Shown: positions 11,156 to 37,726 of the stretch, one piece after another
How positions within the stretch are numbered: position 1 is the first letter of the stretch
How the letters are laid out: every line of letters begins with the position of its first letter
From: a virus
Direction: 5' to 3' (one strand)
IMG/VR virus record: IMGVR_UViG_3300028173_000012
Span: 1-60,135 of that record
DNA: 60,135 bases
Translations under genes and position numbers: made by a program
Notes under the pieces: model-generated
What the model was told of the DNA's origin: nothing
What the model saw: only the letters and a program-made list of their open reading frames with translations
The model's database searches: none

Positions 11156-12187
11156 CTAATTTCGGGTTCCTGCCTGAAACTCTTGAATGTAGTGTGTACG
11201 GGCAGCCGAAGCCACCTTCTTCGCAACATTTTTCCACTCAAAGGTCTCAGCCTCTTCAATCTCAACTGCACATTCACGCTGGACGTCTTGACATACCCAC
11301 CTGAGGTAGTCGCCGACACTTCGCATGTTTGGCTCGAGACCAAGTTCAGCCAGGTATTCGAAACCTTGCTCCAAGCGTCGGGGTGTCACAGCAAACTCGA
11401 GGAACTCCTGGACGTTGGCAAGCTCTTCTGGCGTTGCCTGTACAGTTTTCTTGCTCTTCTGAGTCTTATGCTTCTCACCTTTCGTCTTGAAGAACAGGTC
11501 GGAGTTACCAAGTTGGTCACCAAGCGGAGTCCAGACTAATCCTTCTCCCATGCCTGCCAGCCCGAACAATGCGCCCCATGGGCACAAAACCTCAACAGCT
11601 AGCGTCTTCTTCGTTGCCTCTTCTGCTGCCTTTGTGACAGAGTCAAGATCATCGAGGTCGACTTCAAGCTCAGCAGAACCTGCCTTCAGGATGCTGTAGA
11701 TACTCACATCTTCGTAGTAGTCATGAAAGTTGAAAACCTCGAGGTAACGAGACTTCTCCCCTTCAGTGACAGCAGCCGCAAAGATGACCCACTGTTTTAC
11801 TGGGAGCTGGTTGATCGCCATTCCTTTTTGAACGCCGTTGCCAATCCACTCACCAAACAATGTCAATGTTGCGTCTTCATGCAGGTTGTACGCCACCCGA
11901 AATTGCTTTTCAAGTCCTCGAATGGATACCTGTACTGCAACATGGTGGACGAATGCAGCGAAACCGTTGTTATCATTTTGAAGTGACAACACTGTGTTAC
12001 GACTCTGAGGCACTAATCCCTCTTTCGTGCACGCGACACCGGCATTTGTTCCATGGAGCTTCACAGTTCCTTTGAACTTCGTCACACCTCGAACTTTGTA
12101 TCGCTCAGGCACCTCGGGATCCTTGTTAACCTTTCGAACGTACCGAGACACCTGATATAAGGCGTCAACATGTGTATACTTTTTCAT
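11156..12187 (-). CDS. RNA ligase, Rnl2-type
   Basis: 343 residues. Nucleotidyltransferase motif I is KLHGTN with Lys43 the predicted AMP acceptor, matching the KxxGTN signature of T4 Rnl2-type ligases; later LFGEWIG (motif III/IIIa-like), EGLVW (motif IV) and FFKTKGEKH (motif V). Family members seal nicked dsRNA or repair RNA using ATP. Length fits the family. It lies inside the tRNA array, upstream of its promoter-driven tRNA block. One of three RNA ligases here; tRNA repair or splicing is the natural inference. Confidence 0.88.
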   Translation of the reverse strand: MKKYTHVDALYQVSRYVRKVNKDPEVPERYKVRGVTKFKGTVKLHGTNAGVACTKEGLVPQSRNTVLSLQNDNNGFAAFVHHVAVQVSIRGLEKQFRVAYNLHEDATLTLFGEWIGNGVQKGMAINQLPVKQWVIFAAAVTEGEKSRYLEVFNFHDYYEDVSIYSILKAGSAELEVDLDDLDSVTKAAEEATKKTLAVEVLCPWGALFGLAGMGEGLVWTPLGDQLGNSDLFFKTKGEKHKTQKSKKTVQATPEELANVQEFLEFAVTPRRLEQGFEYLAELGLEPNMRSVGDYLRWVCQDVQRECAVEIEEAETFEWKNVAKKVASAARTHYIQEFQAGTRN

Positions 12188-18533: not shown

Positions 18534-18540
18534 GATCAGA

Positions 18541-18611
18541 ATGAAGCATCAGGACTTGAACCTGAGTCTCTGGGTGTATGTGCCCAGCGCGTGACCACTA
18601 GCTATACTTCA
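18541..18611 (-). tRNA. CAU-type tRNA with 8-nt loop
   Basis: Acceptor TGAAGTA/TGCTTCA, anticodon stem CTGGG/CCCAG closing an 8-nt loop CACATACA; CAU is the likely anticodon but A precedes it instead of U. A third CAU tRNA in the window. Confidence 0.6.
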
Positions 18612-18723
18612 CTCTTTATTCTTGTTACGTAAAGAACCTGCATGCTTCGAAACTAGCAGACGACCTTGCTTATGTGTTAGCTCACACCTGGTTTTAGCAT
18701 TGATGTGATGCAAGATATTGCGG

Positions 18724-18809
18724 AGCTGGGGACAGGATTCGAACCTGCGTTGTGGTTGCCCAACCGGATTACAAATCCGGTGCCTTCGACCATCTCGGCT
18801 CACCCCAGC
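18724..18809 (-). tRNA. class II (Ser-type body) tRNA with UGU anticodon
   Basis: Acceptor GCTGGGG/CCCCAGC, Ser/Leu-type D-arm GAGCCGAGATGGTCGAAGGC, anticodon stem CCGGA/TCCGG, loop TTTGTAA giving UGU (Thr codon ACA), and a long variable arm. Normal tRNA-Thr is class I. The HNH gene upstream stops inside the anticodon loop. Confidence 0.8.
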
Positions 18810-19422
18810 GTCGTTTTTTCGTTACGAGCAACCTGTGTGCTCTAAAATAATTTCCTCCTTTTGGAGTAAGTCCCAGTGATAAGAGTGCTTGTCGGACAGT
18901 CGAATGTGATTCTAACGCAACAAGAAACTCTGCGTCAGTCGTTCGTTTTCGTATGCCATCCTTTCTTTTATTTCGACCTCGCCATGTCTCGGTTAGAGCA
19001 TGACAATTTGGACACAGAAGTTCCAAGTTTTCTCTATCATTATTTTGGTTGTTTCCATCAATATGTTCAATTTCTAATGGAATCAACTCATCTTGCCATT
19101 TTTTGTTTTTGCAACGACGACAAGCATGCGCTTGCTCATCGAATATTCGCATACGCTGGCGCTTGGGTGGTAAACTATCGAAAGGTAGGTCGACATAATG
19201 TGCTATCCTATTTTCTCGATTTGTTTTTCCGCCTTTCACTGCACCTGCGCGTTGCGCATTAGTAGACGTGGTTCGCACCCGTCCTGTAAGCGATTGAGAA
19301 ACCTTTTTATTGATTTCCTCCCTACTTTGTTTTGTTGAAAAACCTCTTGCGCACTTGGCACCACAGAATCGTCCGCTGCCATATTCACCTATATGCGTAT
19401 CATTACAATTTTCACAATTCAT
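18769..19422 (-). CDS. HNH homing-type endonuclease
   Basis: 217 residues. N-terminal Cys-rich finger (CENC...FCGAKCARGFSTK) shared with 676-1215, a basic linker, an HNH core (CRRCKNKKW, LEIEHIDGNNQNN, LELLCPNCHALTETWRG) and a C-terminal tail with ALLSLGLTPKGGNYFRAHRL, similar to 9498-10328. The last 14 residues and the TAA stop are encoded by the tRNA at 18724-18809; the stop is in its anticodon loop. Confidence 0.87.
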   Translation of the reverse strand: MNCENCNDTHIGEYGSGRFCGAKCARGFSTKQSREEINKKVSQSLTGRVRTTSTNAQRAGAVKGGKTNRENRIAHYVDLPFDSLPPKRQRMRIFDEQAHACRRCKNKKWQDELIPLEIEHIDGNNQNNDRENLELLCPNCHALTETWRGRNKRKDGIRKRTTDAEFLVALESHSTVRQALLSLGLTPKGGNYFRAHRLLVTKKRRWGEPRWSKAPDL

Positions 19423-19472: not shown

Positions 19473-19606
19473 TGGTGGGTCCACCAGGACTCGAACCTGG
19501 AACCAACTCATTAATCTCGGAAAATCAGGTTCTGCCCCTTTTCCTGTTTTCACAGGTATCTATTTTTTCCCAAAGTGAGCTGCGCTACCAACTGCGCCAT
19601 GGACCC
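19473..19606 (-). tRNA. tRNA-Lys(UUU) interrupted by a 58-nt insertion
   Basis: Every arm is intact: acceptor GGGTCCA/TGGACCC (7 of 7), D-arm GCGC-AGTTGGTA-GCGC, anticodon stem GCTCA/TGAGT, variable TGGTT, T-arm CCAGG-TTCGAGT-CCTGG, A73 and CCA. Between the anticodon-stem strands lie 65 nt. Removing 58 nt (between CTTT and TAA) restores the loop CTTTTAA, the tRNA-Lys loop. The insert contains a CCTGT-GAAA-ACAGG hairpin. It is far too short for a known self-splicing intron. Confidence 0.85.
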
Positions 19607-23562: not shown

Positions 23563-23928
23563 TTATTTCTTTTCGCAGCCGAAAACTGCACACTCCGTTC
23601 GGACAACCATACGGCTTACTGACGCGGTAATCACCTCAACATTTTCCGACGTCACAGCCGTGGTGACAGCTCGGTGAAGTGCCACATCACGGATGTCCTC
23701 TGCTCGAGGAAGACTGGCTACTGCAGAGAGCAGGCACCCGACAATAACTGATCCCTTGATCCATCTTGTATATTTTGTGCGTTCTTCAGCCCTGGTATCT
23801 TTGTTCCCCAGCACAATCAAAAGTGCGAAAAACGTAACGAAACAGGCAGTAGTGCCCAAAGCGGCACCCAGATGCACATTCTCCATCCACGCCCAGAAAA
23901 AATTCTCGTCCAAAATATTCATACTCAT
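23563..23928 (-). CDS. small membrane protein, two TM segments
   Basis: About 121 residues; ATG at 23928 overlaps the stop of 23925-24617. Two hydrophobic segments (ACFVTFFALLIVLG and VIVGCLLSAVASL) separated by a basic loop, then a Cys-containing C-terminus. Holin-like topology is possible but not established. Confidence 0.6.
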   Translation of the reverse strand: MSMNILDENFFWAWMENVHLGAALGTTACFVTFFALLIVLGNKDTRAEERTKYTRWIKGSVIVGCLLSAVASLPRAEDIRDVALHRAVTTAVTSENVEVITASVSRMVVRTECAVFGCEKK

Positions 23929-24617
23929 TCTCCCTTCGCCAAGTATGCCAGCTTCAAAAAGTCTGGTGCATCCCGGCATTCTGCATATTCCTGATTCATT
24001 TCACGAATACAATTCATCCTACGCTCATCATCCAACCATGGCGTTTCATGGCACAGCCTAAGGATTTCTTCGTTGATGCTGTCGAAGGCTCGCTTCCGGA
24101 GCCATTTGGCGTGATTTGTTAGGTTGTTTACCAGAAGACGGTTTTCCAAAACAATCTTGCGGGCTTGCTTGAGTCCTTCGGCATCAAACCCAACCGTGTA
24201 ATCACACTTCACCAGCCGACAGCGCATGGCACCGTACTTGTTCTGGGAATCATCGATGATGATGTAGGGAGATCCAATCTTGTCATTGTCCTCTAGCCAT
24301 CGGCGACATGGGTCGCCACCACCGGAGCAACAATCTGTCTGAAAGATGTCAATCGTGTGGGCATGACGGGAGCCCGCCGCCGCTAGAACTTCGCGCATCC
24401 TTTCAATTGTTCGACCATTCCATGCCGTGTTGAACACGATGACAGGATTGTGTGACCGAATGACCGTTGGTGCTGCAAAAACAGAAGCTGGTCGTCCAAT
24501 GAAATCAAACAGGTTGTCGAGGTGCGCGACGTTCTCAGGAAGCATATGATCCTGGGTGTGGGTGTTGGCAACGCCATCGACATCGAGGAAGACGAACATG
24601 TCAGGCTTGTTATTCAT
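23925..24617 (-). CDS. HAD-like hydrolase, SAK RNA-repair type possible
   Basis: 230 residues. HAD motif I FLDVDGVAN near residue 10 (nucleophile Asp and DxD), FNTAWNG at the motif II position, and PYIIIDDS at motif IV. HAD domains of this short-cap kind occur in multi-domain phage RNA repair proteins ('Swiss army knife' HAD). The C-terminal part has a charged helical region with CHETPWLDDERR. Co-operonic with 24614-24925. A 3' or 5' phosphatase role in RNA end healing is inference. Confidence 0.7.
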   Translation of the reverse strand: MNNKPDMFVFLDVDGVANTHTQDHMLPENVAHLDNLFDFIGRPASVFAAPTVIRSHNPVIVFNTAWNGRTIERMREVLAAAGSRHAHTIDIFQTDCCSGGGDPCRRWLEDNDKIGSPYIIIDDSQNKYGAMRCRLVKCDYTVGFDAEGLKQARKIVLENRLLVNNLTNHAKWLRKRAFDSINEEILRLCHETPWLDDERRMNCIREMNQEYAECRDAPDFLKLAYLAKGE

Positions 24618-24925
24618 GGGTTCGGGTTCCTCGGGTGCTGCCCAAGTGGGGTGTCCTGCGAAACCGGCTCGATGTTGTTAAGGTGGTATCTCACAGTCCT
24701 GGCCTTTTGTATCGGTAGGGGACGACTTGGGTATTCCATCGTTTCACGCAGTTCAATATCAAACGTAAGCATGCCGTCTGGGTGCTGATTCACCTTGGTC
24801 ACGATGCCAACATGGGCACCGCATGCGAGACCAATTTGATTGCCTTTCAGTCTAACCTTGTCGCCGACCGCAGGCCCGAGCGTGGTATATTCATGGATCC
24901 ATTGCAGTGTTTCAGTCTTAGTCAT
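24614..24925 (-). CDS. SH3/KOW-like protein, about 103 aa
   Basis: Start at 24925 overlaps the upstream stop, giving MTKTETLQWIHEYTTLG then VGDKVRLKGNQIGLACGAHVG, another SH3/KOW-like pattern. The longer frame upstream is a shadow of 24918-25166. Stop overlaps the HAD gene start. Confidence 0.6.
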   Translation of the reverse strand: MTKTETLQWIHEYTTLGPAVGDKVRLKGNQIGLACGAHVGIVTKVNQHPDGMLTFDIELRETMEYPSRPLPIQKARTVRYHLNNIEPVSQDTPLGQHPRNPNP

Positions 24926-25166
24926 CGGTGAGCACCTCTGGGAATTCCAGCATTTCAAGGTCGACGCCCTTCGCCACCTTGTCAACAAACTGCCGGGTGC
25001 GCTTTGCCTCAATGATCGCATCAAGGAGATCCTGTAAGCAGTAGATCTTATTTCGATCACTTGGAGACAGAGCCTTGAATTCAGCTGTGTTGGCGTACAG
25101 GTATAAGCGTTGATCCTCATGCTCAATCTCTTCTAGGCTCTTTTTCATAATATCGTCGACAGTCAT
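24918..25166 (-). CDS. unknown acidic helical protein
   Basis: 82 residues, helical throughout (DIMKKSLEEIEHEDQRLYLY, LQDLLDAIIEAKRTRQFVDK). First gene of the operon driven by the promoter at 25211. No family recognised. Confidence 0.6.
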   Translation of the reverse strand: MTVDDIMKKSLEEIEHEDQRLYLYANTAEFKALSPSDRNKIYCLQDLLDAIIEAKRTRQFVDKVAKGVDLEMLEFPEVLTDD

Positions 25167-25210
25167 GTGATACCTCTGGTTTGGGTCACCACCATCCTGG
25201 CAACATATCC

Positions 25211-25238
25211 ATTATACCATGCTTTTACGATGTTTACA
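25211..25238 (-). promoter_or_regulatory. early-type promoter
   Basis: TGTAAA, 16 bp, TATAAT; an inverted repeat (25239-25259) sits just upstream of its -35. Confidence 0.85.
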
Positions 25239-25259
25239 CATGAACGATGAGCATTCATG
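25239..25259. repeat. inverted repeat at promoter
   Basis: CATGAA/TTCATG around a 9-nt centre, adjoining the -35 of the promoter. A near-identical repeat sits in the same place at 37790-37810. Possible operator or end of the upstream transcript. Confidence 0.45.
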
Positions 25260-25274
25260 TGAATCTGGCACACA

Positions 25275-25508
25275 TTATCGTGCTTTATTTCTAGCGTCTT
25301 CAAGCCGGGCCATGACTTCCATTTCTAAGTCGGGCCAGTCGTCATCAAATGGCATCGGCACCAGATTTCCAATTTCTTGCGAAATAACCTGTGAAAGGCT
25401 ATGCTCGTCCCAACTTGCCCATCCCGGCATAATAAGGACCTCATCAACAACCATCGCCGCCTCATCACCTGCAGGATCAGTTGTTACATCGTTTTGTGAT
25501 TTACGCAA
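25275..25508 (-). CDS. unknown acidic protein, TTG start
   Basis: About 77 residues if a TTG at 25508 is used; an ATG 18 codons in is the alternative. Acidic, with WASWDEHSLSQVISQEIG and a helical C-terminus. Directly follows 25512-26267. Start is uncertain. Confidence 0.45.
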   Translation of the reverse strand: MRKSQNDVTTDPAGDEAAMVVDEVLIMPGWASWDEHSLSQVISQEIGNLVPMPFDDDWPDLEMEVMARLEDARNKAR

Positions 25509-25511
25509 TAT

Positions 25512-26267
25512 TCATGTCCACTGCTTTGGGTCAACTTCATCTCCAAGTTCGTCGTATATCGGGAGCCCGAACCCTGCAAGCATCGCTAATTTTTTGTCGA
25601 CTGCTTTCGCCTGCGCCGGAATATAGCTGTCCTTGAAAAATGCGGGATTGAGACGAATTGCGACGGGTGTCCAGTTGGCAATGATTCCTTCATTGGTTGC
25701 CCAAGAATCTGTAGCACCTTTGAATGATCCTTTGTCCAAAATGGTATTCATGTGCGAGCGGTCGTTCGACATTCTGCCACGCTTCGGGACGCCCGAGCTT
25801 TTATATTTTGCCCTGAGTTTTGGTGGCAGGTTGCTATATCCCGTGTACAAGTCGTCCATGTCATTTGATGCATACGTCGTGCGGCCCTTGATTTCGACAC
25901 CAACTGTGCCCCAAGAACTCGATACGATCTCGCCTGGCGCGTAAAGGACGGCGGAAATCTCATCCTTGTGCCGACCTGGCGCTGCCACTCTGCCGACTGA
26001 GGTTTCGTTAACTCGCCGATATGAGAACCAATGAACCTTCGTTAATGAGTCGAAAAACGCATGGTCAGCTTCTTCTTTCCAAATTGTTTTTAGCGCCCGG
26101 GCATGCCGTTTCGGTTCGGCATCCTCAGGTCTATGAAATGTTGATGTCTCTTCGGTGTCGTTTGGGCCGTATGATGGCTCTCTGTGATTGTGCTCACCAG
26201 ATCTGCTGACAAATGTTGCGTAATCTTCTTTTAGAAATTCGGCAATGAGCTCTCGTAATAGTTTCAT
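25512..26267 (-). CDS. unknown-domain paralogue A
   Basis: 251 residues, the first of three tandem homologues (with 26264-27016 and the C-terminal part of 27018-28274). N-terminus MKLLRELIAEFLKED is an amphipathic helix ending in Glu/Asp, like T4 Alt/IP capsid-targeting peptides. Conserved blocks: WKEEADHAFFDSL, HKDEISAVLY, SNDMDDLYTGYSNL, SSGVPKR, NEGIIANW. Invariant His, Asp, Glu, Arg and Trp suggest an enzyme. I do not recognise the family; an injected host-modifying enzyme is inference. Confidence 0.7.
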   Translation of the reverse strand: MKLLRELIAEFLKEDYATFVSRSGEHNHREPSYGPNDTEETSTFHRPEDAEPKRHARALKTIWKEEADHAFFDSLTKVHWFSYRRVNETSVGRVAAPGRHKDEISAVLYAPGEIVSSSWGTVGVEIKGRTTYASNDMDDLYTGYSNLPPKLRAKYKSSGVPKRGRMSNDRSHMNTILDKGSFKGATDSWATNEGIIANWTPVAIRLNPAFFKDSYIPAQAKAVDKKLAMLAGFGLPIYDELGDEVDPKQWT

Positions 26268-27016
26268 AAGTTACCCACCGCGTGCCTTAGCACCTTCACA
26301 TCATCGTATGACTTGATTTGCGTGTCGTTTTTATCGTAAACAGGTAGTCTCAGCTCATTCGCCACGCTTATTAATTGCGACCACCATGCTTCATGCATCC
26401 ACACCGCGCCTTCCATAAATCTAATTGCCACAACATACCAATTAGCTACTAATCCTTCATTTGTTTTCCATTGACTTTTCGTGTATGAGCCGGCATCAAG
26501 TATATAGCCGGCGGATGTCTTTTTGTTGAAAACAAGCGGCCGCTTGGGCACACCAGAATTTTTGAATTTGTTTCTTATTTCCTGTGGCAAATTGCTATAG
26601 CCTGTATAGAGCGAATTCATATCATTCGCAGCAAGCGTGACATGTCCTTCGACTTGCAAACCGACATTGCCCCAATCATCATCAGGCGATTCTGTTTCAT
26701 CGTACAGAATAACTGATATTTCATCTTTGTTTTGCCGACCTGTAACACGCCTGATTATTTTTTCGTGGTTCCTTGTTGGTGAAATCCAGTGGATTTTTGT
26801 CAGCGAGTCAAAAAATGAATGGTCGGCCTCTTCTTTCCAGGTTGTCTTTATTTGCCTGGCCATATTCTTTTTACTTTTTTCGTCGGGCTTATCAAATGTC
26901 GAATAAGGGGTTAGCGTCGATGAATGTGATGAATACTTCATTCCATCAGTTCGTTGTTGGAACCCTGCTGCATCCTCCATGAGTACTTCTCTAACAACAT
27001 CATCGATTAAACTCAT
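26264..27016 (-). CDS. unknown-domain paralogue B
   Basis: 250 residues, homologous to 25512-26267 along its length: WKEEADHSFFDSL, NKDEISVILY, NDMNSLYTGYSNL, NSGVPKR, NEGLVANW. N-terminus MSLIDDVVREVLMEDA is again a short helix ending Glu-Asp. Stop overlaps the start of paralogue A, so co-translated. Confidence 0.7.
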   Translation of the reverse strand: MSLIDDVVREVLMEDAAGFQQRTDGMKYSSHSSTLTPYSTFDKPDEKSKKNMARQIKTTWKEEADHSFFDSLTKIHWISPTRNHEKIIRRVTGRQNKDEISVILYDETESPDDDWGNVGLQVEGHVTLAANDMNSLYTGYSNLPQEIRNKFKNSGVPKRPLVFNKKTSAGYILDAGSYTKSQWKTNEGLVANWYVVAIRFMEGAVWMHEAWWSQLISVANELRLPVYDKNDTQIKSYDDVKVLRHAVGNL

Positions 27017-27017
27017 T

Positions 27018-28274
27018 CTACACTTCCCACTGCGGCGGTTCAGCCTCTGTCACAATGTCGCCGTTGGGCGCATAAACCTTTAGCCCAACTTCTTCACAAA
27101 AGTCTAGAAGATGTTGCTGTACAGCTTCTGCAGCATCGAAAAAATCGACTGATATACGAATAGATACTAATTCCCAATTGGCAATGATCCCTTCATTTCT
27201 TGATGTGTTTTTGAATGACCTTGCATCCAAAATATACTTTTCCATGGAATACTTGCTGGCCTTTGACGGCCTTTTTGGCACCCCTGAGCTTTTAAAAGAA
27301 GCCCTTACCGACTTTTTCAAATTGCCATACCCGGTAAACAACGAGTCCATGTCATTAGACGCGAGCGTAGTGCGCCCCTGTATTTGAAGACCTACAGGTC
27401 CCCATTTTGAATGTATGTTTCGAGTAGGTGAATACAGCGCCACTGATATTTCGTCTTTGTTCCTGCCGTTATTCATCGCTCGGTCGATTATGTGCATGGG
27501 CGATTTTGCTCGGTCTGTATCAAGCCAGTGAACCTTAATCAATGATGCGAAGAATGCATGATCGGCTTCTTCTTTCCAGACTGTTTTTATGTGGCGACTT
27601 TTCTTTTTTCTATCGGCATCATCGGGAGTTTCAAATGTCGTAAATTCACCGAAATTCTCCCGACTTTGATAGTAATTGTCGTCGACTGTGCGCTTGATGA
27701 ACGTTCGCAAATCTTCTTTCAGCGAAGGCTTCGCGGCGGCATTCTTCACTTTTGCAATCAATTCAGGCGTGAACCCGAAGAACAAATCTGCTGCCTCAAA
27801 CTGTTTCACTGTGAACCAGCGCTCACCTTTGGTTTCATGTTCAAACCCAGCGGCTGGTGCAGGATCCCATTCATCTTTTTCGGTTTTTGCCACCGTGGCG
27901 ACGAATGTTTTATATTTGAAACCTCTGTCCTCATATAGATACGTGTCAATCACACGACTTTTTGGGACAGAACCACATTCTTCACGAACTTCTTCAATAG
28001 CTTGCTTATAAAACCGCTTGCTGTCATCTGCAAGAACATGTTCTTTCGGGATGGGTACGGGCCATTTCTGTTCTCGCTGGCCTTCAACGTGGATACCACC
28101 TCCAGGGAAACCCCACTGGCCAGCGCCTCCCATAACATCATCAGCTCTATGTTGCAAGAATACGGTGCCGTCTTCTTGGCACACAAAAACAACGCCAGCA
28201 CCTGCGATTCCCCAATATTGTTGTTGGGTTTCTTCTAGCAGGAGGCTGCGAACATATCGACGTAATGGATTCAT
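27018..28274 (-). CDS. Nudix hydrolase fused to unknown-domain paralogue C
   Basis: About 418 residues from the ATG at 28274, five bases after ATATTTAG with no ribosome-binding site. N-terminal helix (PLRRYVRSLLLEE), then a Nudix domain: GFPGGGIHVEG and AIEEVREECG form the Nudix box, with an insertion of about 25 residues between them. From about residue 200 the third copy of the tandem domain (WKEEADHAFFASL, NKDEISVALY, NDMDSLFTGYGNL, SSGVPKR, NEGIIANW). Nudix enzymes cleave nucleoside diphosphates linked to X (ADP-ribose, NAD, caps), so the partner domain may act on related molecules. Confidence 0.75.
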   Translation of the reverse strand: MNPLRRYVRSLLLEETQQQYWGIAGAGVVFVCQEDGTVFLQHRADDVMGGAGQWGFPGGGIHVEGQREQKWPVPIPKEHVLADDSKRFYKQAIEEVREECGSVPKSRVIDTYLYEDRGFKYKTFVATVAKTEKDEWDPAPAAGFEHETKGERWFTVKQFEAADLFFGFTPELIAKVKNAAAKPSLKEDLRTFIKRTVDDNYYQSRENFGEFTTFETPDDADRKKKSRHIKTVWKEEADHAFFASLIKVHWLDTDRAKSPMHIIDRAMNNGRNKDEISVALYSPTRNIHSKWGPVGLQIQGRTTLASNDMDSLFTGYGNLKKSVRASFKSSGVPKRPSKASKYSMEKYILDARSFKNTSRNEGIIANWELVSIRISVDFFDAAEAVQQHLLDFCEEVGLKVYAPNGDIVTEAEPPQWEV

Positions 28275-28278
28275 ATGA

Positions 28279-28287
28279 CTAAATATT
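28279..28287 (-). promoter_or_regulatory. late-type motif ATATTTAG, leaderless gene
   Basis: Five bases before the ATG at 28274. Confidence 0.5.
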
Positions 28288-28315
28288 GAAAGCGCTGTCA
28301 TTTACTTATATTATT

Positions 28316-28405
28316 TGGTACCACCGGTGGGAGTCGAACCCACACGCCCAGTTAAGGACACCAGATTTTGAGTCTGGCATGTCTCACCAATTCCATCACG
28401 GTGGC
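28316..28405 (-). tRNA. tRNA-Leu(CAA)
   Basis: Acceptor GCCACCG/CGGTGGT, anticodon stem CCAGA/TCTGG, loop CTCAAAA giving CAA, long variable arm, CCA. Isolated from the main array. Confidence 0.93.
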
Positions 28406-28412
28406 ATTTTGT

Positions 28413-28745
28413 TTAGTCGCCGTAATAGCGACCTGGGACACCATAGTAACTCGCCATGGCACTGTTAAACTTGGCTTGAGCGTCAAGATATGCTTGCGGA
28501 CCAACAACGTCCCAAGACGTGCTACGTGGATCAGTAACAGGAGCCAACCGAGCATCAGGCCATTTCGTCATAAACTCCTGGCGCCAACTGTCAAGGTGCT
28601 CAGCAGACTTGACTGTCTGTGACGCGTGATGGCCAAGGAGTGGCAACATCATCTCTTGACCGGTGAACTCCATGGCTTCGATTGGGGTTCCGCCCTCAAT
28701 CTGCTCACGGATAAGTTTTCTTAGTTGTGATTTTGTAACTTTCAT
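28413..28745 (-). CDS. protein with CTS-like N-terminus, 110 aa
   Basis: Starts MKVTKSQLRKLIREQ, the shared leader; the body is helical with QEMMLPLLGHHASQTVKSAEH and an Ala/Tyr-rich end (SAMASYYGVPGRYYGD). No domain recognised. Putative capsid-targeted internal protein. Confidence 0.72.
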   Translation of the reverse strand: MKVTKSQLRKLIREQIEGGTPIEAMEFTGQEMMLPLLGHHASQTVKSAEHLDSWRQEFMTKWPDARLAPVTDPRSTSWDVVGPQAYLDAQAKFNSAMASYYGVPGRYYGD

Positions 28746-28749
28746 CGAA

Positions 28750-28980
28750 CTATCCTTTCTTTTTGTTTCGTAGCCTTTCTAGCTTTTTCTTGATTTGTTG
28801 AACTTTTCGTGCCTGTATCATCGCAATGCTGTCCCTGAGCATGCCGTTCTCTTGTTGCAGTTTTTTGATTGAAAAATCCTTGTTGTGACAATCAATACAA
28901 AACGCCCGGCGCCAAAGAAGACAAACAAACAAGCCAGCGATAAACCCTACGAACGATGCGATGGTGACACTTACAAACAT
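28750..28980 (-). CDS. small membrane protein with coiled coil
   Basis: 76 residues: an N-terminal TM segment (VTIASFVGFIAGLFVCLLW), a CxxC (CIDC), then a heptad helix ending in a Lys/Arg tail. Inner-membrane spanin-like topology, but no matching outer-membrane partner is adjacent. AAAGGTG before the start. Confidence 0.55.
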   Translation of the reverse strand: MFVSVTIASFVGFIAGLFVCLLWRRAFCIDCHNKDFSIKKLQQENGMLRDSIAMIQARKVQQIKKKLERLRNKKKG

Positions 28981-29006
28981 TTTTCACCTTTGGTTCTCCC
29001 ATGGCT

Positions 29007-29015
29007 CTAAATATT
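29007..29015 (-). promoter_or_regulatory. late-type motif ATATTTAG
   Basis: About 27 bases upstream of 28980. Confidence 0.5.
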
Positions 29016-29029
29016 GGTAAGCCAACTTT

Positions 29030-29329
29030 CTAACTAGGTTTCGACAACTCCCAACCTTGCGACCTTCCTGTCCAAACGTTCGGTGGAATGTAACTCAGTT
29101 GGCCGAGTGCCCACAAATTCACGAGCTGCTTCGACACAATGTTGTCGATGGTCGCAGGTTGATCCGGACTGGACGCAGCAATCATGGCCAGCATTGGACG
29201 TGGCATTGCGGTGTTATTCGCGAATGCCATCTCACCGATGGCCTCTTTAGCACCTGCAGCCATCTTTTCAGCCTCATCGGCCTCATCGTCATAGCAAAAC
29301 ACGTTGGCAACCATATTAGTAACTTCCAT
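29030..29329 (-). CDS. unknown protein, about 99 aa
   Basis: Start is 29329 or 29314; both overlap the end of 29316-29474. Acidic middle (YDDEADEAEKMAAGAKEAIGE), Ala/Met-rich stretch, then WALGQLSYIPPNVW. No family recognised. Confidence 0.55.
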   Translation of the reverse strand: MEVTNMVANVFCYDDEADEAEKMAAGAKEAIGEMAFANNTAMPRPMLAMIAASSPDQPATIDNIVSKQLVNLWALGQLSYIPPNVWTGRSQGWELSKPS

Positions 29330-29474
29330 TGTCTTTACACTTCCCTCGGCATGCCTTCTTAGCAGCCGCTTTTTTGCGATTTCCGAATGCGCCAGCTCGA
29401 CGCTGGTGAGCATCTACAGCATGCGGGTTCCGTGGAAGGCGCAATTCAACTTTTTGTTTCTTTCGGTTCTTCAT
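29316..29474 (-). CDS. small very basic protein, 52 aa
   Basis: ATG at 29474 with GGAAAGAG upstream and a promoter at 29499. Sequence is Lys/Arg-rich throughout (KNRKKQKVELRLPRNPH, FGNRKKAAAKKACRGKCK), so probably nucleic-acid binding. Confidence 0.55.
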   Translation of the reverse strand: MKNRKKQKVELRLPRNPHAVDAHQRRAGAFGNRKKAAAKKACRGKCKDNGSY

Positions 29475-29498
29475 GTCTCTTTCCCCCTGCCTGTAAAT

Positions 29499-29526
29499 AT
29501 TATACCACAGTGTGATACGTTTTACA
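29499..29526 (-). promoter_or_regulatory. early-type promoter
   Basis: TGTAAA, 16 bp, TATAAT; upstream of 29316-29474. Confidence 0.8.
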
Positions 29527-29543
29527 CGTGCAGGAAAAAATAG

Positions 29544-29750
29544 TTATTCGTCTCCGCGGATTATCATCCCGCCGTTCTCTAAAAGGCCATTCACTGCGAG
29601 TTTCGTCAGCCAAAAAAGATCGCCCTCGTTGAAAAACCGAAACATATTGCGGCGTTCTTCGATACAAACCAATGACCTCGACTGTCCGGATTCATCAGGA
29701 GCAAGAACCAAGGCATCATTGACCTGCAATACAAGCTCAGGCAGCATCAT
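29544..29750 (-). CDS. unknown protein, 68 aa
   Basis: Beta-rich: ELVLQVNDALVLAPDESG, SLVCIEERRNMFRFF. Overlaps the end of 29737-29985, so the two form an operon. No family recognised. Confidence 0.55.
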   Translation of the reverse strand: MMLPELVLQVNDALVLAPDESGQSRSLVCIEERRNMFRFFNEGDLFWLTKLAVNGLLENGGMIIRGDE

Positions 29751-29985
29751 CTTCGGCCGCCTTCACCAGGCAATCAGGGCATGTTAGTTTCGCAGATCCG
29801 GGTGAGACTTTCACACTCCACTCATCCAATTGTTCTGGGTGCTCCCGGGGATTGAACTCAGCCCCACACTCGACACAACCGTTGGGCATGGCATCCATCA
29901 ATTGCTTGATTTCCTTTGCAGCCTTGTTGGCGTTTTTCCGTTTGCGCTTGTCTTGGTTGCGCTTGACCTGTCGAGCAAAGCTCAT
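29737..29985 (-). CDS. small zinc-ribbon protein
   Basis: 82 residues with a Lys/Arg-rich N-terminus and a CVEC...CPDC pair typical of a zinc ribbon, followed by an acidic tail. Possible RNA or DNA binder. Confidence 0.6.
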   Translation of the reverse strand: MSFARQVKRNQDKRKRKNANKAAKEIKQLMDAMPNGCVECGAEFNPREHPEQLDEWSVKVSPGSAKLTCPDCLVKAAEDDAA

Positions 29986-30084
29986 TTGTACTCCTTTAGG
30001 GTATCTAGGTTGACCCGTATACGTCCGAAATCCTATGTGAGTGGATTACTCCACCCATGGCAAACGAATGCCCATGTGACCATT

Positions 30085-30927
30085 CTATTCAACCAACTGC
30101 AATTGTTCAACAACCGGCTTTTCGGCATCAAAAACAACAGCCACACGATTTGTCACCGTCGTCAGCTTAGGCATACTCACATTAGCAATCCTGTGTCGCG
30201 TCACCTTTCCCTCAAGGAATGTGGCACGACCGTCCCCATCTTTGCACTTCGCCAAGATTTTTGCAATCGCGGCGTCACTGAGTTCCGCTTCATACGTCTC
30301 ACGCTGAACATACGTTCCTCGCTTCCAGGCAACCTTCAAATCATTCCAGTTTACCTGGTGGTAGCCCATCAAGAGATCCTGCACCTGGCTCACGTTTTTG
30401 CCCTGAAGCTCCTTGTGGCTGAAGTAGTGGTTCGCCAGCATGCTTACGCTGTTCCTGGCTGCATCAAGCTCGCGCCAGATTAGCACGTTGACGGCTTCAT
30501 CCTTGCTTGGAACCTGAAATGCCCGGCAGTCGAACATTGCAATCGTTCCCGGATCTCTCTGCAACGCAGTCTCGCGGCAGTCATTGAAATAGCCTGTCGC
30601 CATCGACGCCAGAATCGATGTCATCTTTTGCACACGCCCATTGAGATAGATTTCTGATTTCGGCTTGTCCTGCAGGTAAATCAGGGTGATTTCATCAGAC
30701 TGCGTGTAGCCAATCCTTGCGCCTGTCTGCTCAACAAGGTAATGCGTTGTTAACACCATCAAGTCGGTGAAACCCGCATCGAACGGCTTCTCCATGTTCT
30801 TGGTGAACTTGCTGAATCGCTTGCCATCCAGTCGAACCACCACCGGGATTCCCGGGATGAATGACCTCTTGGTCTCACGGGCCTCATAACCCTTGATTCG
30901 ATCTCCTAGTCCTGTTCCCTTACTCAT
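30085..30927 (-). CDS. Thg1-like tRNA 3'-5' polymerase (TLP)
   Basis: About 280 residues from the ATG at 30927, which overlaps the upstream stop; the frame continues 5' but as a shadow of that gene. Family signatures: LGDRIKGYEARET at the N-terminus, VVVRLDGKRFSKFTK (metal-binding Asp and HxxF-like element) and YTQSDEITLI (second metal site). Thg1 adds G-1 to tRNA-His; Thg1-like proteins repair or edit 5' ends of tRNAs by 3'-5' synthesis templated by the 3' strand. That fits a genome whose tRNAs include mismatched 5' acceptor strands. Confidence 0.9.
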   Translation of the reverse strand: MSKGTGLGDRIKGYEARETKRSFIPGIPVVVRLDGKRFSKFTKNMEKPFDAGFTDLMVLTTHYLVEQTGARIGYTQSDEITLIYLQDKPKSEIYLNGRVQKMTSILASMATGYFNDCRETALQRDPGTIAMFDCRAFQVPSKDEAVNVLIWRELDAARNSVSMLANHYFSHKELQGKNVSQVQDLLMGYHQVNWNDLKVAWKRGTYVQRETYEAELSDAAIAKILAKCKDGDGRATFLEGKVTRHRIANVSMPKLTTVTNRVAVVFDAEKPVVEQLQLVE

Positions 30928-31214
30928 TTCGTCTCCTTTTTTAGTTTGCTCTTGCCCAAGTCGGATAGAAATCCGCGGACAATATGTTTCTTGCGGTTTT
31001 TTGTGAAGGCCGTCGGCCGAGAGCGTCGCTTGTTTCCACGTCGTTCCTGGATGATTTTCTCGGCTCGACGCATCAGTTTTCGCCATTTTCGCTTTGCAGC
31101 CCTGGCATCCTCAGGGGACATTTTCGCCAGTTCTTCTTTGATGTCACAATCAGGAAAAAGAACACCGGACTCAAGAGCTCCCATGCGCTCAAAAAATTGT
31201 CGATCAATTTTCAT
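30924..31214 (-). CDS. unknown basic protein, 96 aa
   Basis: Begins MKIDRQFFERMGALE, then an acidic helix and a strongly basic C-terminal half (RKWRKLMRRAEKIIQERRGNK). Translationally coupled to the Thg1-like gene, so a possible RNA-binding accessory. Confidence 0.6.
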   Translation of the reverse strand: MKIDRQFFERMGALESGVLFPDCDIKEELAKMSPEDARAAKRKWRKLMRRAEKIIQERRGNKRRSRPTAFTKNRKKHIVRGFLSDLGKSKLKKETK

Positions 31215-31230
31215 TTTTCAGTCCTGTACA

Positions 31231-31239
31231 GATATTTAG
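31231..31239 (+). promoter_or_regulatory. late-type motif GATATTTAG, plus strand
   Basis: Four bases before the ATG at 31244 on the plus strand. Confidence 0.55.
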
Positions 31240-31243
31240 ATTC

Positions 31244-31636
31244 ATGCTACAACCACCACAAGCACATGAAGGCTTCGTTCCTGCTTACCAACGATCAGCG
31301 TTGCCATATGTAACGTCGTCGATTCTGGCATCATCTGGTTCAATTCACTCATACACATTTGATTATGTCACCAGGTTTTTTACTGTGAAAAACACAGGTG
31401 GAACTGACGGTGACACAATCAATGTGGCATTTACTAGCAACGGTTTTGAATCAGGCAATTCGTTTCGTCTCGTTCGTGGTGAGTCGTTCGACGAAGAAAT
31501 TCGCTGCGTGAAATTGTTTGTGTCATGTTCCGCCGGTTCGTTAGTAAACTATGAACTCATTGCTGGTTTGACAAACATACCTTTCAAAAACTTCAACGTC
31601 CTCACAGGCTCTAATGGCTGGAAGGGCGTAGGCTAG
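31244..31636 (+). CDS. unknown beta-rich protein, leaderless
   Basis: 130 residues on the plus strand. The ATG follows GATATTTAGATTC directly, with no ribosome-binding site. Composition is Gly/Ser/Asn/Phe-rich and beta-like (FDYVTRFFTVKNTGG, INVAFTSNGFESG), as in virion decoration or fibre proteins. Its end overlaps the convergent kinase gene by four bases. Product assignment is inference. Confidence 0.6.
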   Translation: MLQPPQAHEGFVPAYQRSALPYVTSSILASSGSIHSYTFDYVTRFFTVKNTGGTDGDTINVAFTSNGFESGNSFRLVRGESFDEEIRCVKLFVSCSAGSLVNYELIAGLTNIPFKNFNVLTGSNGWKGVG

Positions 31637-32028
31637 TCCTGCCAGCGGTCAATCATTCGCTGGATGGCGAATTCAGGAACATTGTGGGTATTCCGCTCGA
31701 CAGCAACCTTGACATCGATCAACGGTAATACCTCGAACTGGACATCATATCCAAACTCGGCAGCCCGAGTCACGTATTCCTTATAGTCACGGTGTCGAAC
31801 GTTGGTGTTGTCAACGATCACAGGCGAGAGCTCTTTCTCAAGAGAGTCCTCAAAGTTTGAAAGGTTCAACGAGTGATTCCGACCGAGCAGCTTCGGATTG
31901 AACTTGTACTCACCATCGACCATGAACAGGTCATCGGTCGAATGAATGATGCCCTCAGCAACAAGCTCACGAGCACGAGTCGACTTGCCTGAACCTGGGA
32001 TTCCCCTCATAATAATGACACGCTTCAT
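31633..32028 (-). CDS. P-loop kinase, polynucleotide-kinase-like
   Basis: About 131 residues. Walker A RGIPGSGKST at residues 8-17, then STDDLF, and VIVDNTNVRHRDY, the pattern of AAA_33/T4 PNK-type kinases that phosphorylate 5'-OH ends. No phosphatase domain is attached, unlike T4 Pnkp. Its promoter is at 32050. In this cluster an RNA 5'-kinase for healing broken tRNA before ligation is the likely role. Confidence 0.75.
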   Translation of the reverse strand: MKRVIIMRGIPGSGKSTRARELVAEGIIHSTDDLFMVDGEYKFNPKLLGRNHSLNLSNFEDSLEKELSPVIVDNTNVRHRDYKEYVTRAAEFGYDVQFEVLPLIDVKVAVERNTHNVPEFAIQRMIDRWQD

Positions 32029-32049
32029 ACTCCCCTCCATTATGCTTCA

Positions 32050-32077
32050 ATTATATCATACGTGACGTCGTTTTACA
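32050..32077 (-). promoter_or_regulatory. early-type promoter
   Basis: TGTAAA, 16 bp, TATAAT; lies in the 3' end of 32051-33202 and drives the kinase. Confidence 0.8.
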
Positions 32078-33202
32078 CGACCTCTTATGCTTTTCAAGCT
32101 CAGACGACACGATGTCGACAGACAAATCGTCCAACCATCGCATGTCAACCCGCTTGGGCAACGACGAATCTACTGCCAAACCGGACAATGCATCCTTTTC
32201 GTCACGGAATTTCGACATCAACTCGTCAAACTTGACCTCACCGTTGCGGATGGCAAGAACATACGGGTTCGGGTCGTAAACGTGCAAATCGCCAGACTCG
32301 AAGATTGTGCGACAAGCGATGGTGAGACGCCACAAATGTGCAGCATGTTTCACATCGTACCCGATCTTCTTCTCCATCCCAGCCCGCTTCTTATTGCGAC
32401 CCTTCTTCCAGGCATTGAACGATTTCCACTTGTCACGAGCCATATCGTACTGACGCTGCTTCTGAACGAAATCGATGAAGTTGGTTTCGTACCCCAGCAA
32501 ATTGCATGCTGCAGTGAATTTCTCGTCAGTTCCTACGCCGACCTCAGCCAATTGCTTGTAAAGCTGGTCGTTGATAAAGATCTTCGTTGCCTCATCCACA
32601 TCCTTGAAGTCGATGCACCAATGGTCAACCTGCTTCTTGGCAGCCCTGATGGCAGCCATGATTTGATCCTTTGGGTATGCATGTTGTGCTGGAAGACCAA
32701 ACTCTTCTCGAGTCGGTTCGTGCTCCAATGGGTTCAGCAGCCACTTTCGATGTGTTTCGATGCGGTGTGCCTGAGATGTTGCATACCCGATGAATGTGTG
32801 GAGGCACTTCTTCGTCAAAAAACGGTGCCGAACATTGCGGAGGTGGCGGCCAGCTGCTGTCGCGTAGATTACGTCTTCATCACGGGTAAACAGCACATCG
32901 AGGATGTTCGGGTTTGCACCGGCGGCCAAGGCCAAGAACTTCCTTACCTCGAAAACCGTCCCCTCCATCCCATGAAGCGAGGCGACTTCTTTCAACGCAG
33001 GCGTCAGGTCGCCCCAAAACGATTCCTCGACAAGCAGTGCTTCCTGAACCTGCTCGATTGTTTTGGTGCCCATGTAGTATTCTTTTGGTGGAACCATAAC
33101 ACCCTTCACATCAAGATCTGACGTGGGCGTTTCCATTCCATACGCTCGGGATCCTGCTACCGTGAGGAGGATCGCATGCTTACGCAAATCGAAGTTTGTC
33201 AT
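32051..33202 (-). CDS. RlaP-type nucleotidyltransferase
   Basis: 383 residues. The N-terminus carries the Pol-beta-type signature LTVAGSRAYGMETPTSDLDVKGV (GS plus DxD), which matches the RNA-ligase-associated nucleotidyltransferase family RlaP. The long C-terminal part is helical and basic (KGRNKKRAGMEKKIG). RlaP proteins typically sit beside RNA ligases, as here. Exact substrate is not known. Confidence 0.8.
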   Translation of the reverse strand: MTNFDLRKHAILLTVAGSRAYGMETPTSDLDVKGVMVPPKEYYMGTKTIEQVQEALLVEESFWGDLTPALKEVASLHGMEGTVFEVRKFLALAAGANPNILDVLFTRDEDVIYATAAGRHLRNVRHRFLTKKCLHTFIGYATSQAHRIETHRKWLLNPLEHEPTREEFGLPAQHAYPKDQIMAAIRAAKKQVDHWCIDFKDVDEATKIFINDQLYKQLAEVGVGTDEKFTAACNLLGYETNFIDFVQKQRQYDMARDKWKSFNAWKKGRNKKRAGMEKKIGYDVKHAAHLWRLTIACRTIFESGDLHVYDPNPYVLAIRNGEVKFDELMSKFRDEKDALSGLAVDSSLPKRVDMRWLDDLSVDIVSSELEKHKRSCKTTSRMI

Positions 33203-33243
33203 TTTTGACCTCTGTTCCTGTCACCGTTCCTGGCAACATGTCT

Positions 33244-33271
33244 ATTGTATCACGCTTTTTTGATTCTTACA
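33244..33271 (-). promoter_or_regulatory. early-type promoter, weaker boxes
   Basis: TGTAAG, 16 bp, TACAAT; upstream of 32051-33202. Confidence 0.65.
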
Positions 33272-34318: not shown

Positions 34319-34321
34319 ACT

Positions 34322-34633: not shown

Positions 34634-34644
34634 CGTGGTCCCCT

Positions 34645-35013: not shown

Positions 35014-35060
35014 CACAATCCTTGTTTATGTTCCGGCAGAGTAGCCACCGGAACATAAAC

Positions 35061-35088: not shown

Positions 35089-35091
35089 CGT

Positions 35092-36285
35092 TTAGTTTGT
35101 CTGTGACTTGTAGTAAGCCCGACAAACATTCCGGAAGTTGTTGATTCCACCCTCAGAAGGGGCATACAAATCATATAGCGACCACCAACCGGCTTTGGCG
35201 CCAGTGTCCTGGCCTTCCTTCAGTTTCGCCAGGACTTCGTCAACCATCTCGTAAGCGGTTGTACGAATCTCCTCTGGGAGTGTAATCAACATGTAATCAA
35301 GGCGGTCATTCTTGATGCAGTTCATCAGGTATTTGTAGCTCAGCTTCGACTTGACCATCTCGCCGATGTAGCTGATGTATTTGAACTTGACACGGCGGCC
35401 TTCGCCATTACCGTTTGGAATCACGGCAACCCAGCCTTCCTGGTTTACGACGGATCGGTCGTTGATCTCGTCATGAAGTGTCTGGAGTGTCATGAACACA
35501 ACGTCGACTGGTAGAATCACCTCAGGCAAGGCTTCGCAAATCGCATCACGGACCTCCGGGGTTGCCGGATTACCATCAGCATCATATGCCTCAAGCAGGA
35601 AAATCTGCTTTGCACCGGCATAATCGACATGGACAGTCGTCATCGGGTGAACGAACTCGCAAACCAACGACATCAAATCGAAACCCTTGTTTGCACATGT
35701 CACCCATGCTTCCTTGAAGTCATCCAACTCCATCAACTCGAGAGCACCGACAGCAGACGGGGTTCCCAGGCGACCACGAGTGGTGGTGCACAGCTTTCCG
35801 TCATGAATGAAGTACTCGATCATGTGACCGTCTTCCTTACGAGTGCAACGCAACTTGGTGTCACCCGACATCGAAGCCAGATTCTCCATGGAAGTCTCCG
35901 GGAGCTCACCCTGGTTGAAGAACTTCTCGAAGCCACGGGAGACGAGTGTCACACCCTCAACCTGGCCCGCAGTCTCATACGAGTAAACGACGCCACGAAG
36001 CAATCGCAACTCAGCGGACCAACCGTCAACCACCTCATGAAGGAGGTTGTGAGCAGTGGGGCTATAGTTGAGCAGAACAAGCTGGCGCTTCTCATCAATA
36101 TCAAACCCGAGCAGCTTGCCTGCCTGGATACCCCACTTCGCATCGACACCGAGAAGCTCGCACAACTCATCGTCATGCTCACGCTTCACCTTGGCCCACA
36201 GATTCAGCTTATCATTCCGGTTCTTCATATGACCGGTCAGAAAGGCTACGAGACGAGGAAGCTTCATGGTAAATTCGGAATTCAT
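35092..36285 (-). CDS. RNA ligase, Rnl1-type (A)
   Basis: 397 residues. Motif I CTRKEDGHMIEYF with Lys150 the predicted AMP site; upstream LVSRGFEKFFNQGE and RLLRGVVY are typical of T4 Rnl1-like ligases; TTRGRLG follows. Paralogue of 36686-37726. T4 Rnl1 seals tRNA-Lys cut by an anticodon nuclease, the closest known parallel. Start at 36285 has AAGGA upstream. Confidence 0.88.
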   Translation of the reverse strand: MNSEFTMKLPRLVAFLTGHMKNRNDKLNLWAKVKREHDDELCELLGVDAKWGIQAGKLLGFDIDEKRQLVLLNYSPTAHNLLHEVVDGWSAELRLLRGVVYSYETAGQVEGVTLVSRGFEKFFNQGELPETSMENLASMSGDTKLRCTRKEDGHMIEYFIHDGKLCTTTRGRLGTPSAVGALELMELDDFKEAWVTCANKGFDLMSLVCEFVHPMTTVHVDYAGAKQIFLLEAYDADGNPATPEVRDAICEALPEVILPVDVVFMTLQTLHDEINDRSVVNQEGWVAVIPNGNGEGRRVKFKYISYIGEMVKSKLSYKYLMNCIKNDRLDYMLITLPEEIRTTAYEMVDEVLAKLKEGQDTGAKAGWWSLYDLYAPSEGGINNFRNVCRAYYKSQTN

Positions 36286-36682: not shown

Positions 36683-36685
36683 CGT

Positions 36686-37726
36686 TTATGGTTTAACCAA
36701 TTTCCAAATTGAATCAACAAACGTCGATGGCTTGCCGTCCAGAAGGCTAAACAGTGGTCCCGGCTGCATCAGATTAAACTTGCTCATTTTGATGATTACC
36801 ATCGCCTGGTCCTTTCGTGACTCAGTCTTATGCAACTCAAGATGCTTGAAAAGGCGTTGATACCGAACCACCTCGCGCTCAAACTCGCGCTGTTGACGCT
36901 GGACCTGAGCTTTCAAATCGTCGAACAACTCATCAGGAAGCTCAGCGATCATTGCCTCGACGTTCTCGCCTGACGACAATGCTTCCCAGATACGTCGTGG
37001 TGACATATCGTGAACGAGACGATGCAGTTTTATGTACTCATCAAGCTTCACCTTAACCCGCGGGCCGTCTTCAAACATGATGACATAGCCTTCGAAGTTG
37101 GACGTATCGCGTGGAAGATCTTTCAAGTCCTCTACAGTGAACACTTCTGGAGTCCGAAAAGGCAGCTCAGGAAAATCGGTTGCCTCATACTCAAGCCCTG
37201 ACTCGGTGCAGATCGCGCCAATCAAAACGAGCTCCTCAACGTCGCCATAGTTTACGACGATCCTGTTGTCAGGGTAAATGATTTCGAAGAGGTACGTGAT
37301 ATGCCCGTGCATCTTTGGGACGGCATCTTTGTACTTCGTTCGAAGCATCTCGGTTGCCTTGATTGCCTGCTCTGACTCAAACGACCCACGGGTAGAAATT
37401 GCCAGCCCGTCAGGAGTCGAGTATGAAATCCCGAGTGACCCATCCATTTTTTCAAATGCTTTGAATCGATCGCCGATTGGGAGATCTGGCAAGGCAGGAG
37501 ACTCATGCTCGCCAATGTTGAAAAACTTCTTGAATGGTCGTGCAACCACACGTCCGGTACCGTCAACAATCAGCCCACGGCAGGCCATCGTTGCCTCGTT
37601 CCATCGGCGCTCATACTGAACAGGCGGTGCATAATTCAGAACAAACAAATCGTATTTTGGGTGTGGACGACGGGTAATATATCCTGCGTCGATCTCAGAC
37701 TGAATCAGTGGGTCCAACAAATCCAT
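36686..37726 (-). CDS. RNA ligase, Rnl1-type (B)
   Basis: 346 residues. Motif I FEKMDGSLG with Lys93 the predicted AMP acceptor; ARPFKKFFNIGE and RGLIVDG upstream; STRGS, LFEIIYPDNRIVVNY and GYVIMFEDG as later motifs. A second Rnl1-family enzyme distinct from 35092-36285 (low identity outside motifs), suggesting different substrates. Confidence 0.88.
   Translation of the reverse strand: MDLLDPLIQSEIDAGYITRRPHPKYDLFVLNYAPPVQYERRWNEATMACRGLIVDGTGRVVARPFKKFFNIGEHESPALPDLPIGDRFKAFEKMDGSLGISYSTPDGLAISTRGSFESEQAIKATEMLRTKYKDAVPKMHGHITYLFEIIYPDNRIVVNYGDVEELVLIGAICTESGLEYEATDFPELPFRTPEVFTVEDLKDLPRDTSNFEGYVIMFEDGPRVKVKLDEYIKLHRLVHDMSPRRIWEALSSGENVEAMIAELPDELFDDLKAQVQRQQREFEREVVRYQRLFKHLELHKTESRKDQAMVIIKMSKFNLMQPGPLFSLLDGKPSTFVDSIWKLVKP

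Follow-up and report, generated by a model that had tools for sequence, protein, structure and literature searches.

Can a tRNA gene with 58 nucleotides (nt) lodged in its anticodon loop still supply a tRNA, and how would the extra sequence be removed? The question is raised by a tRNA-Lys(UUU) gene in IMG/VR record IMGVR_UViG_3300028173_000012, a 60-kb fragment of a jumbo-phage-like genome (60,135 nt, analyzed in full and referred to here as the window). We found that small inserts with the build of a tRNA interrupt tRNA genes at the anticodon loop in many phages, and that the insert in the window is probably a degenerate member of this class. A first-pass annotation of the window had described the interruption and missed the tRNA-like build, which is its key feature.

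A conserved insert in the anticodon loop of tRNA-Lys(UUU)

The gene is part of a dense tRNA cluster on the minus strand, where ARAGORN reports 35 genes, and it is placed between tRNA-His (20515) and tRNA-Thr (18722). ARAGORN run without its intron option did not find it in the window; with that option, it returned tRNA-Lys(ttt) at c[19473,19606] with an intron of 58 nt. The Rfam tRNA model matched 19606-19476(-) with 56.4 bits and an E value of 1.6e-9 (3.6e-11 in a short-stretch search), using a 61-nt local end in place of the anticodon loop. Both programs thus confirmed the split tRNA-Lys(UUU) of the first-pass annotation, and its structural details held as well. Every arm pairs, ACCA is encoded, 65 nt separate the two strands of the anticodon stem (19575-19511), and the insert carries the GNRA-capped hairpin CCTGT-GAAA-ACAGG (19556-19543). 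Deleting the 58 nt joins the exons into a perfect tRNA-Lys with the anticodon loop CTTTTAA. The insert, 19571-19514(-), lies between U35 and U36 (CTTT^TAA); since the U is repeated, the junction can equally be read as CTT^TTAA (34/35), and the mature RNA is identical either way. This is the sole tRNA with a UUU anticodon in the window, which also has a tRNA-Lys(CUU) at 17764. The AAA codon is common, with 178 AAA versus 210 AAG in 14 long open reading frames.

A pattern consisting of the 5′ exon plus CTTTGGG led to L002, a phage contig that is syntenic with the window and has 76 to 83% nucleotide identity to it nearby. The tRNA-Lys genes of the two are identical at 133 of 134 positions, and the insert occupies the same place and is identical at 58 of 58. 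By simple arithmetic, the chance of 58 unchanged sites at 80% identity is about 2e-6. Because the insert is unchanged while the neighboring DNA is only 76 to 83% identical, it is not a product of decay. An inactivated gene, one of the options in the first-pass annotation, is at odds with this full conservation and with the intact outer arms, and the gene shows neither the broken arms nor the relaxed conservation of a tRNA pseudogene (all arms pair, 133/134 identical). That annotation had also named missing conservation in related phages, together with a missing spliced product, as grounds for dropping its reading; the insertion is conserved in L002, and comparable inserts occur in many other phages. 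With the insert conserved, no second copy of the anticodon and relatives that are alike, sequence comparison supports a gene that behaves as a real intron carrier and not as a dead one. The intron sequence itself had L002 as its sole match in our searches; the stretch covered in L210, a relative, lacks tRNAs. An HNH (homing-type) endonuclease gene adjoins the interrupted tRNA in the window. In L002, tRNA-Thr directly follows tRNA-Lys and the HNH gene is missing beside the same intron. The insert is thus independent of this gene, which we rejected as an intron-homing partner.

Introns built like tRNAs in other phages

The pattern that retrieved L002 also matched unrelated phages (L003/L005 and L007), whose tRNA-Lys(UUU) genes have 75-nt inserts of other sequence at the same site. 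A tRNA scan of the matched phages added interrupted genes for Gln, Thr, Leu and Asn, their inserts measuring 44 to 118 nt, and a junction pattern built on the acceptor/N73-CCA layout returned further clear cases. The collected set comprises 25 introns of 34 to 123 nt, 13 of them found without selecting the 3′ end and 12 through the CCA pattern. They occupy Lys, Gln, Thr, Leu, Asn and Arg tRNAs, the excess of Lys being partly an effect of the search patterns. One stretch (L162) holds three interrupted genes (Leu, Gln and Lys), and L171 and L178 hold two each. In the records checked, several of which are fragments, interrupted genes of this main type were never seen to be accompanied by an intact tRNA of the same anticodon.

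The inserts share one build. The 5′ strand of a 7-bp helix forms the start of each, and N73-CCA or N73 directly follows the 3′ strand, so that in the 25 introns the ends of an acceptor stem with 6 or 7 of 7 bp coincide with the first and last intron bases. The plainest example, L153, reads CTTT[GTTAAGC ACGGGTATT CGTGG-TTCAACT-CCACG GCTTAGC ACCA]TAA, a 44-nt acceptor/T-arm minihelix. Compared with dinucleotide shuffles, the acceptor helix at the junction gave a combined p of 1.5e-12 for the 13 introns with an unselected 3′ end and 2.5e-19 for the 12 CCA-pattern introns, whose register was fixed. A T-arm stands in register in most introns; all five of its pairs form in 17 of 25, and its loop is TTCRA or one change away in most. 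The tail is NCCA in 19 of 25, N73 alone in 3 and degenerate in 3. The base before the 5′ junction is U in 19/25, and the first intron base is G in 15/25. Many inner units keep U8-A9 and a short D-arm with the loop AAGUA, and have no anticodon arm.

Covariation was measured on 14 aligned genes, covering the outer tRNA, the inner acceptor and the inner T-arm, after removal of the variable central part of the insert. Standard pairs made up 98.0% of the total, and double changes occurred at 29 of 33 pairs, including 7/7 pairs of the inner acceptor and 4/5 of the inner T-arm. The covariation score was 0.954, compared with 0.213 for shuffles and at most 0.158 when slid.

A covariance model of the class was used to search the cultured Agrobacterium phage Atu_ph07, which proved to have three interrupted tRNAs: Asn(GUU) at 324023-323905, Lys(UUU) at 68280-68159 and Thr(UGU) at 335213-335108. 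Their spliced anticodon loops would read CTGTTAA, CTTTTAA and TTTGTAA, respectively. The 30 intact tRNAs found in this genome (ARAGORN over Rfam tRNA places) include none for Asn, Thr or Lys(UUU). In the paper on this phage, Asn and Thr are the two amino acids reported to lack a tRNA (PMC6102473); the interrupted Asn and Thr genes are exactly these two isotypes. Being cultured, and with the interrupted genes as the only Asn and Thr tRNAs found, Atu_ph07 allows a direct test. In Sinorhizobium phage Phosso, the tRNA-Lys(UUU) gene is continuous (loop CTTTTAA) and represents the intron-free counterpart. Another Sinorhizobium phage, AP-J-162, reportedly lacks tRNA-Tyr (PMC11242549) and may hold an interrupted gene for it. 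Two other cultured phages, XbC2 (L242:795-916) and Kaldavass (L243:716-837), have an annotated tRNA-Lys(UUU) of 122 nt. In both, an insert of about 48 nt with a long hairpin interrupts the 5′ anticodon-stem strand, which places these genes outside the class.

How well does the window insert fit? Its closing helix, GGGAAAA/UUUUCCG, abuts both junctions, with 6/7 pairs if the junction is read as CTTT^ or 7/7, including a G-U, one base earlier (CTT^). A T-arm-like hairpin with a weak stem (3/5 bp) precedes the 3′ strand of the acceptor in register, and its loop, GGCAGAA, resembles the GGCAGCA of a clear Leu intron in L008. At the 3′ junction of the window, AGAU takes the place of N73-CCA or N73. 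The joint score for acceptor, T-arm and T-loop gave p=0.002 against shuffles. We call the insert a probable degenerate member because it has the closing helix, the T-arm-like hairpin and this joint score, yet deviates in tail and T-stem; it is not the best example of the class. Alternatively, the insert could be a small intron or insertion of separate origin whose closing helix is a coincidence. The missing NCCA, the weak T-stem, the GNRA hairpin and an inner part that aligns poorly to model R1 would fit such an origin. However, the insert lies in the same tRNA and at the same site (35/36) as other members, is of similar length, and has its closing helix at the junctions and its T-arm-like hairpin in register. 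Degenerate tails also occur elsewhere: ACTA in L008 Thr, GCAA in L005 Gln and AAAG in Atu_ph07 Asn. We therefore regard an unrelated insertion as doubtful.

Introns in phage tRNAs were described in the Lak megaphages by Devoto et al. in 2019, who stated that none had been reported earlier, called them enigmatic, noted that one may encode a tRNA and proposed no processing mechanism (PMC6784885). Like the window insert, they are small, highly conserved, unclassified by Rfam and located in anticodon loops (PMC6784885). On our reading, their 3′ junction coincides with the N73 end of a unit that has a 7-bp acceptor and a T-arm. They differ in having an extra hairpin and an A-rich linker ahead of the tRNA-like part, whereas in the window the acceptor sits at the 5′ junction. 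These introns (L142, L143 and L144, from Lak-A1 and Lak-C1) and L148 form a second type, in which hairpin and A-rich linker are followed by a tRNA-like unit ending at N73. This type resembles the class at the 3′ junction only, its 5′ junction not being at the inner acceptor. The layout with a 5′ hairpin and A-rich linker was not seen in the window insert, where the closing helix comes first. In Lak-A1/C1 and L148, most interrupted isoacceptors are also present intact.

These intact copies in Lak-A1 and L148, together with inner units that are nearly full tRNAs (L171, L166 and G004 Asn), would suit nested tRNA genes or elements inserted in tRNA genes, with both genes dead or the inner one alone of importance. 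Against this, most inner units lack an anticodon arm while their acceptor and T-arm covary, the outer tRNAs stay perfect, main-type interrupted genes are sole copies, and the window insert is conserved at 58/58. We consider nesting of this kind quite improbable.

A candidate splicing route and its alternatives

We lean slightly toward a functional window gene, whose tRNA-mimic intron would be cut out by RNase P and a tRNA 3′-processing activity and sealed by a phage ligase. The chances seem even for the wider proposal that phages of many lineages use an unprecedented form of splicing. In that proposal, tRNA-disguised introns in many isotypes would be removed by ordinary tRNA end-processing enzymes and a ligase, with the window Lys gene as a compact, degenerate case. 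The excised piece would fold into a minihelix made of an acceptor stem and, in most cases, a T-arm stacked with it, often with a stunted D-arm and with no anticodon arm. The 5′ splice site would lie at the first base of this piece and the 3′ splice site at its other end, N73 or N73-CCA. RNase P recognizes acceptor/T-arm stacks with a 3′ RCCA and cuts 5′ of the acceptor. On the precursor, its expected cut lies just ahead of the inner acceptor stem and would leave the 5′ exon with a 3′-OH; this expected position is exactly that of the 5′ exon junction, where the preceding base is mostly U and the following one often G. A tRNA 3′-processing activity (tRNase Z or an equivalent) would cut after N73/CCA, leaving a 5′-phosphate on the 3′ exon. 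The outer tRNA fold would keep both halves together as a nicked anticodon loop, the kind of substrate on which T4 Rnl1 is known to act, and sealing by a phage Rnl1/Rnl2-type ligase would give CUUUUAA. Since both cuts would leave 3′-OH and 5′-phosphate ends, such ligases would need no kinase here. We infer cutting and sealing of this kind for the class, and for the window insert as one that may still work in this way.

Parts of this route have precedents. The introns have the same components as RNase P minihelix substrates (acceptor, T-arm and RCCA), with the predicted cut at the same place, although such minihelices are not known as an intron boundary signal. In the T4 response to PrrC, by Pnkp and Rnl1, a nicked tRNA-Lys anticodon loop is likewise sealed by an Rnl1-type ligase; there it serves damage repair and not the removal of a genome-encoded insert.

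Several points weigh against the proposed route. The class is described here from genes, and splicing is read from their architecture. The 3′ cut after CCA, and the enzyme that would make it in a bacterial host, form the weakest step. The introns of L014 and L198 fit the T-arm model poorly, and the window insert has no NCCA, its T-stem has only 3 bp, and its acceptor either contains a G1xG72 mismatch or has to be shifted in register by one base. All intron-bearing records of 25 kb or more have an RNA ligase match, but so do 12 of the 15 control phages without such introns, and some of the matches score below the curated cut-off. Because most controls match too, ligase content is consistent with the route and not diagnostic of it. 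A compact ligase subfamily of about 215 amino acids was seen in five intron-bearing records and no controls. Phosso also has a compact ligase, and we did not rely on the subfamily because the tRNA-Lys of this phage has no intron.

The RNA-repair genes of the window could serve another scheme, in which a different endonuclease (anticodon nuclease-like or a further phage RNase) cuts the precursor, a kinase and a ligase repair the 2′,3′-cyclic phosphate ends, and the tRNA-like fold is a recognition platform only. The PNK-like and Rnl1/Rnl2-like enzymes announced by the first-pass annotation are indeed encoded, as an AAA_33 kinase-like protein, two Rnl1-like ligases and one Rnl2-like ligase, and the window has a metallophosphoesterase as well. 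The window insert lacks CCA, and in Lak-type introns RNase P alone would not define the 5′ junction because the extra hairpin precedes the tRNA-like part. On the other side, acceptor ends match both junctions exactly in the main type, so that no extra enzyme is needed. In addition, a search of intron-bearing records, which covered RtcB and not EndA, did not find RtcB, and no bulge-helix-bulge (BHB) fold is present. We judge this scheme unlikely.

The tRNA introns of archaea and eukaryotes are likewise short, located in the anticodon loop and removed by cutting and ligation, and the first-pass annotation had considered a protein-spliced intron of that type. Theirs lie at 37/38 and have the BHB fold; here the site is 35/36 or 34/35 with an acceptor/T-arm minihelix, and a constrained fold gave no two 3-nt bulges around a 4-bp helix. 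With RtcB missing from the records tested, we rejected a BHB intron.

Group I introns do occur in tRNA anticodon loops. Those of bacterial tRNAs also follow a U, and the tRNA cluster has many homing endonucleases, as might suit an inactivated gene or a group I intron that has shrunk or decayed. Group I introns, however, measure about 200 nt or more and have a catalytic core, far beyond this fully conserved insert of 58 nt. An Rfam covariance search of the window detected no intron family, group I, group II or other, at E≤10. We give this explanation almost no credence.

The first-pass annotation had further suggested a decoy, that is, a precursor that resists PrrC-like cleavage until spliced. 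tRNA-Lys(UUU) is the PrrC target, and phage tRNAs evade anticodon nucleases through loop changes (PMC10264068). However, the same introns occupy Gln, Thr, Leu, Asn and Arg tRNAs, the bias toward Lys comes in part from the search, and the tRNA once spliced would be sensitive again. A decoy thus gains no specific support, and we hold it to be very improbable. Of that earlier reading, the real intron and the repair enzymes stand, and the group I and BHB options fall.

We know of no intron kind that is bounded by a tRNA acceptor stem, and for this reason we rate the class as new, its splicing being the conditional part. Nested tRNAs or tRNA-like introns of this class were not found in the literature searched, which left out preprints and most subscription journals. 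Bacteria and their phages are not known to splice tRNAs other than with self-splicing introns. If correct, the proposed route would add a third way of splicing tRNAs, one that combines RNase P and tRNA 3′ processing with phage RNA ligases. It would give an extra role to the many phage RNA ligases, and would account for the "enigmatic" Lak introns and for tRNA genes skipped by standard annotation.

Neighboring genes and further observations

The features of the window are collected in Table 1. RNA-repair genes are dense in 23925-37726(-), which encodes HAD_SAK_2, Thg1, AAA_33 kinase-like, RlaP, Endonuclease V-like and metallophosphoesterase proteins as well as the two Rnl1-like ligases.

Table 1. 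Parts of the interrupted tRNA-Lys gene and selected other genes of the window
Feature	Position	Strand	Basis or remark
tRNA-Lys(UUU) gene, CCA encoded, anticodon loop interrupted	19473..19606	-	Rfam, ARAGORN, fold
5′ exon, 35 nt: acceptor 5′ strand, D-arm, 5′ anticodon stem, CTTT	19572..19606	-	direct reading
Intron, 58 nt; identical 58/58 in L002	19514..19571	-	
3′ exon, 41 nt: TAA, 3′ anticodon stem, variable loop, T-arm, acceptor 3′ strand, ACCA	19473..19513	-	
Acceptor-like 5′ strand GGGAAAA, begins at 5′ junction	19565..19571	-	pairs with 19518-19524
CCTGT-GAAA-ACAGG hairpin, where D and anticodon arms would sit	19543..19556	-	
T-arm-like AAAGG-GGCAGAA-CCTGA; 3 bp; 7-nt loop with C56 and R57	19525..19541	-	
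Acceptor-like 3′ strand TTTTCCG	19518..19524	-	
AGAU tail replacing N73-CCA, reaches 3′ junction	19514..19517	-	direct reading, comparison with class
HNH (homing-type) endonuclease adjoining interrupted tRNA	18769..19422	-	
Rnl2-like RNA ligase inside tRNA cluster	11156..12187	-	PF09414
AAA_33 kinase-like protein (PNK-like)	31633..32040	-	
Second Rnl1-like RNA ligase	35092..36285	-	PF09511
Rnl1-like RNA ligase	36686..37726	-	PF09511 and PHROG 562; TIGR02308 match below cut-off

In Atu_ph07, a compact PF09414 ligase annotated as hypothetical lies at 66519-67163 (L253:220-909(-)), about 1 kb from the interrupted tRNA-Lys; ligases of similar size are present in G002, G003, G006, G011, G016 and Phosso.

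A scan of bacterial genomes returned one true example, L213, labeled as a Methanobrevibacter metagenome-assembled genome and perhaps a stray phage contig; the other matches resemble tRNA ends at att sites and were set aside. The pattern CCATAAN{13,14}GTTCGAATCC gave mostly false matches. BLAST of the intron genes against GenBank phages returned exon matches only, or none.

Elsewhere in the window, 18539-18612(-) encodes a tRNA with an 8-nt anticodon loop (cata) that adjoins tRNA-Val and is kept in L002 (70 of 73 aligned positions). At L196:7738-7943, a tRNA has an anticodon-loop insert of about 130 nt that consists of a nearly complete tRNA and an AT-rich tail ending in CCA. In L152, L181, L193 and L208, a matching 5′ half was not found just upstream of a tRNA 3′ half that begins at the anticodon-loop TAA and directly follows the CCA of an intact tRNA.
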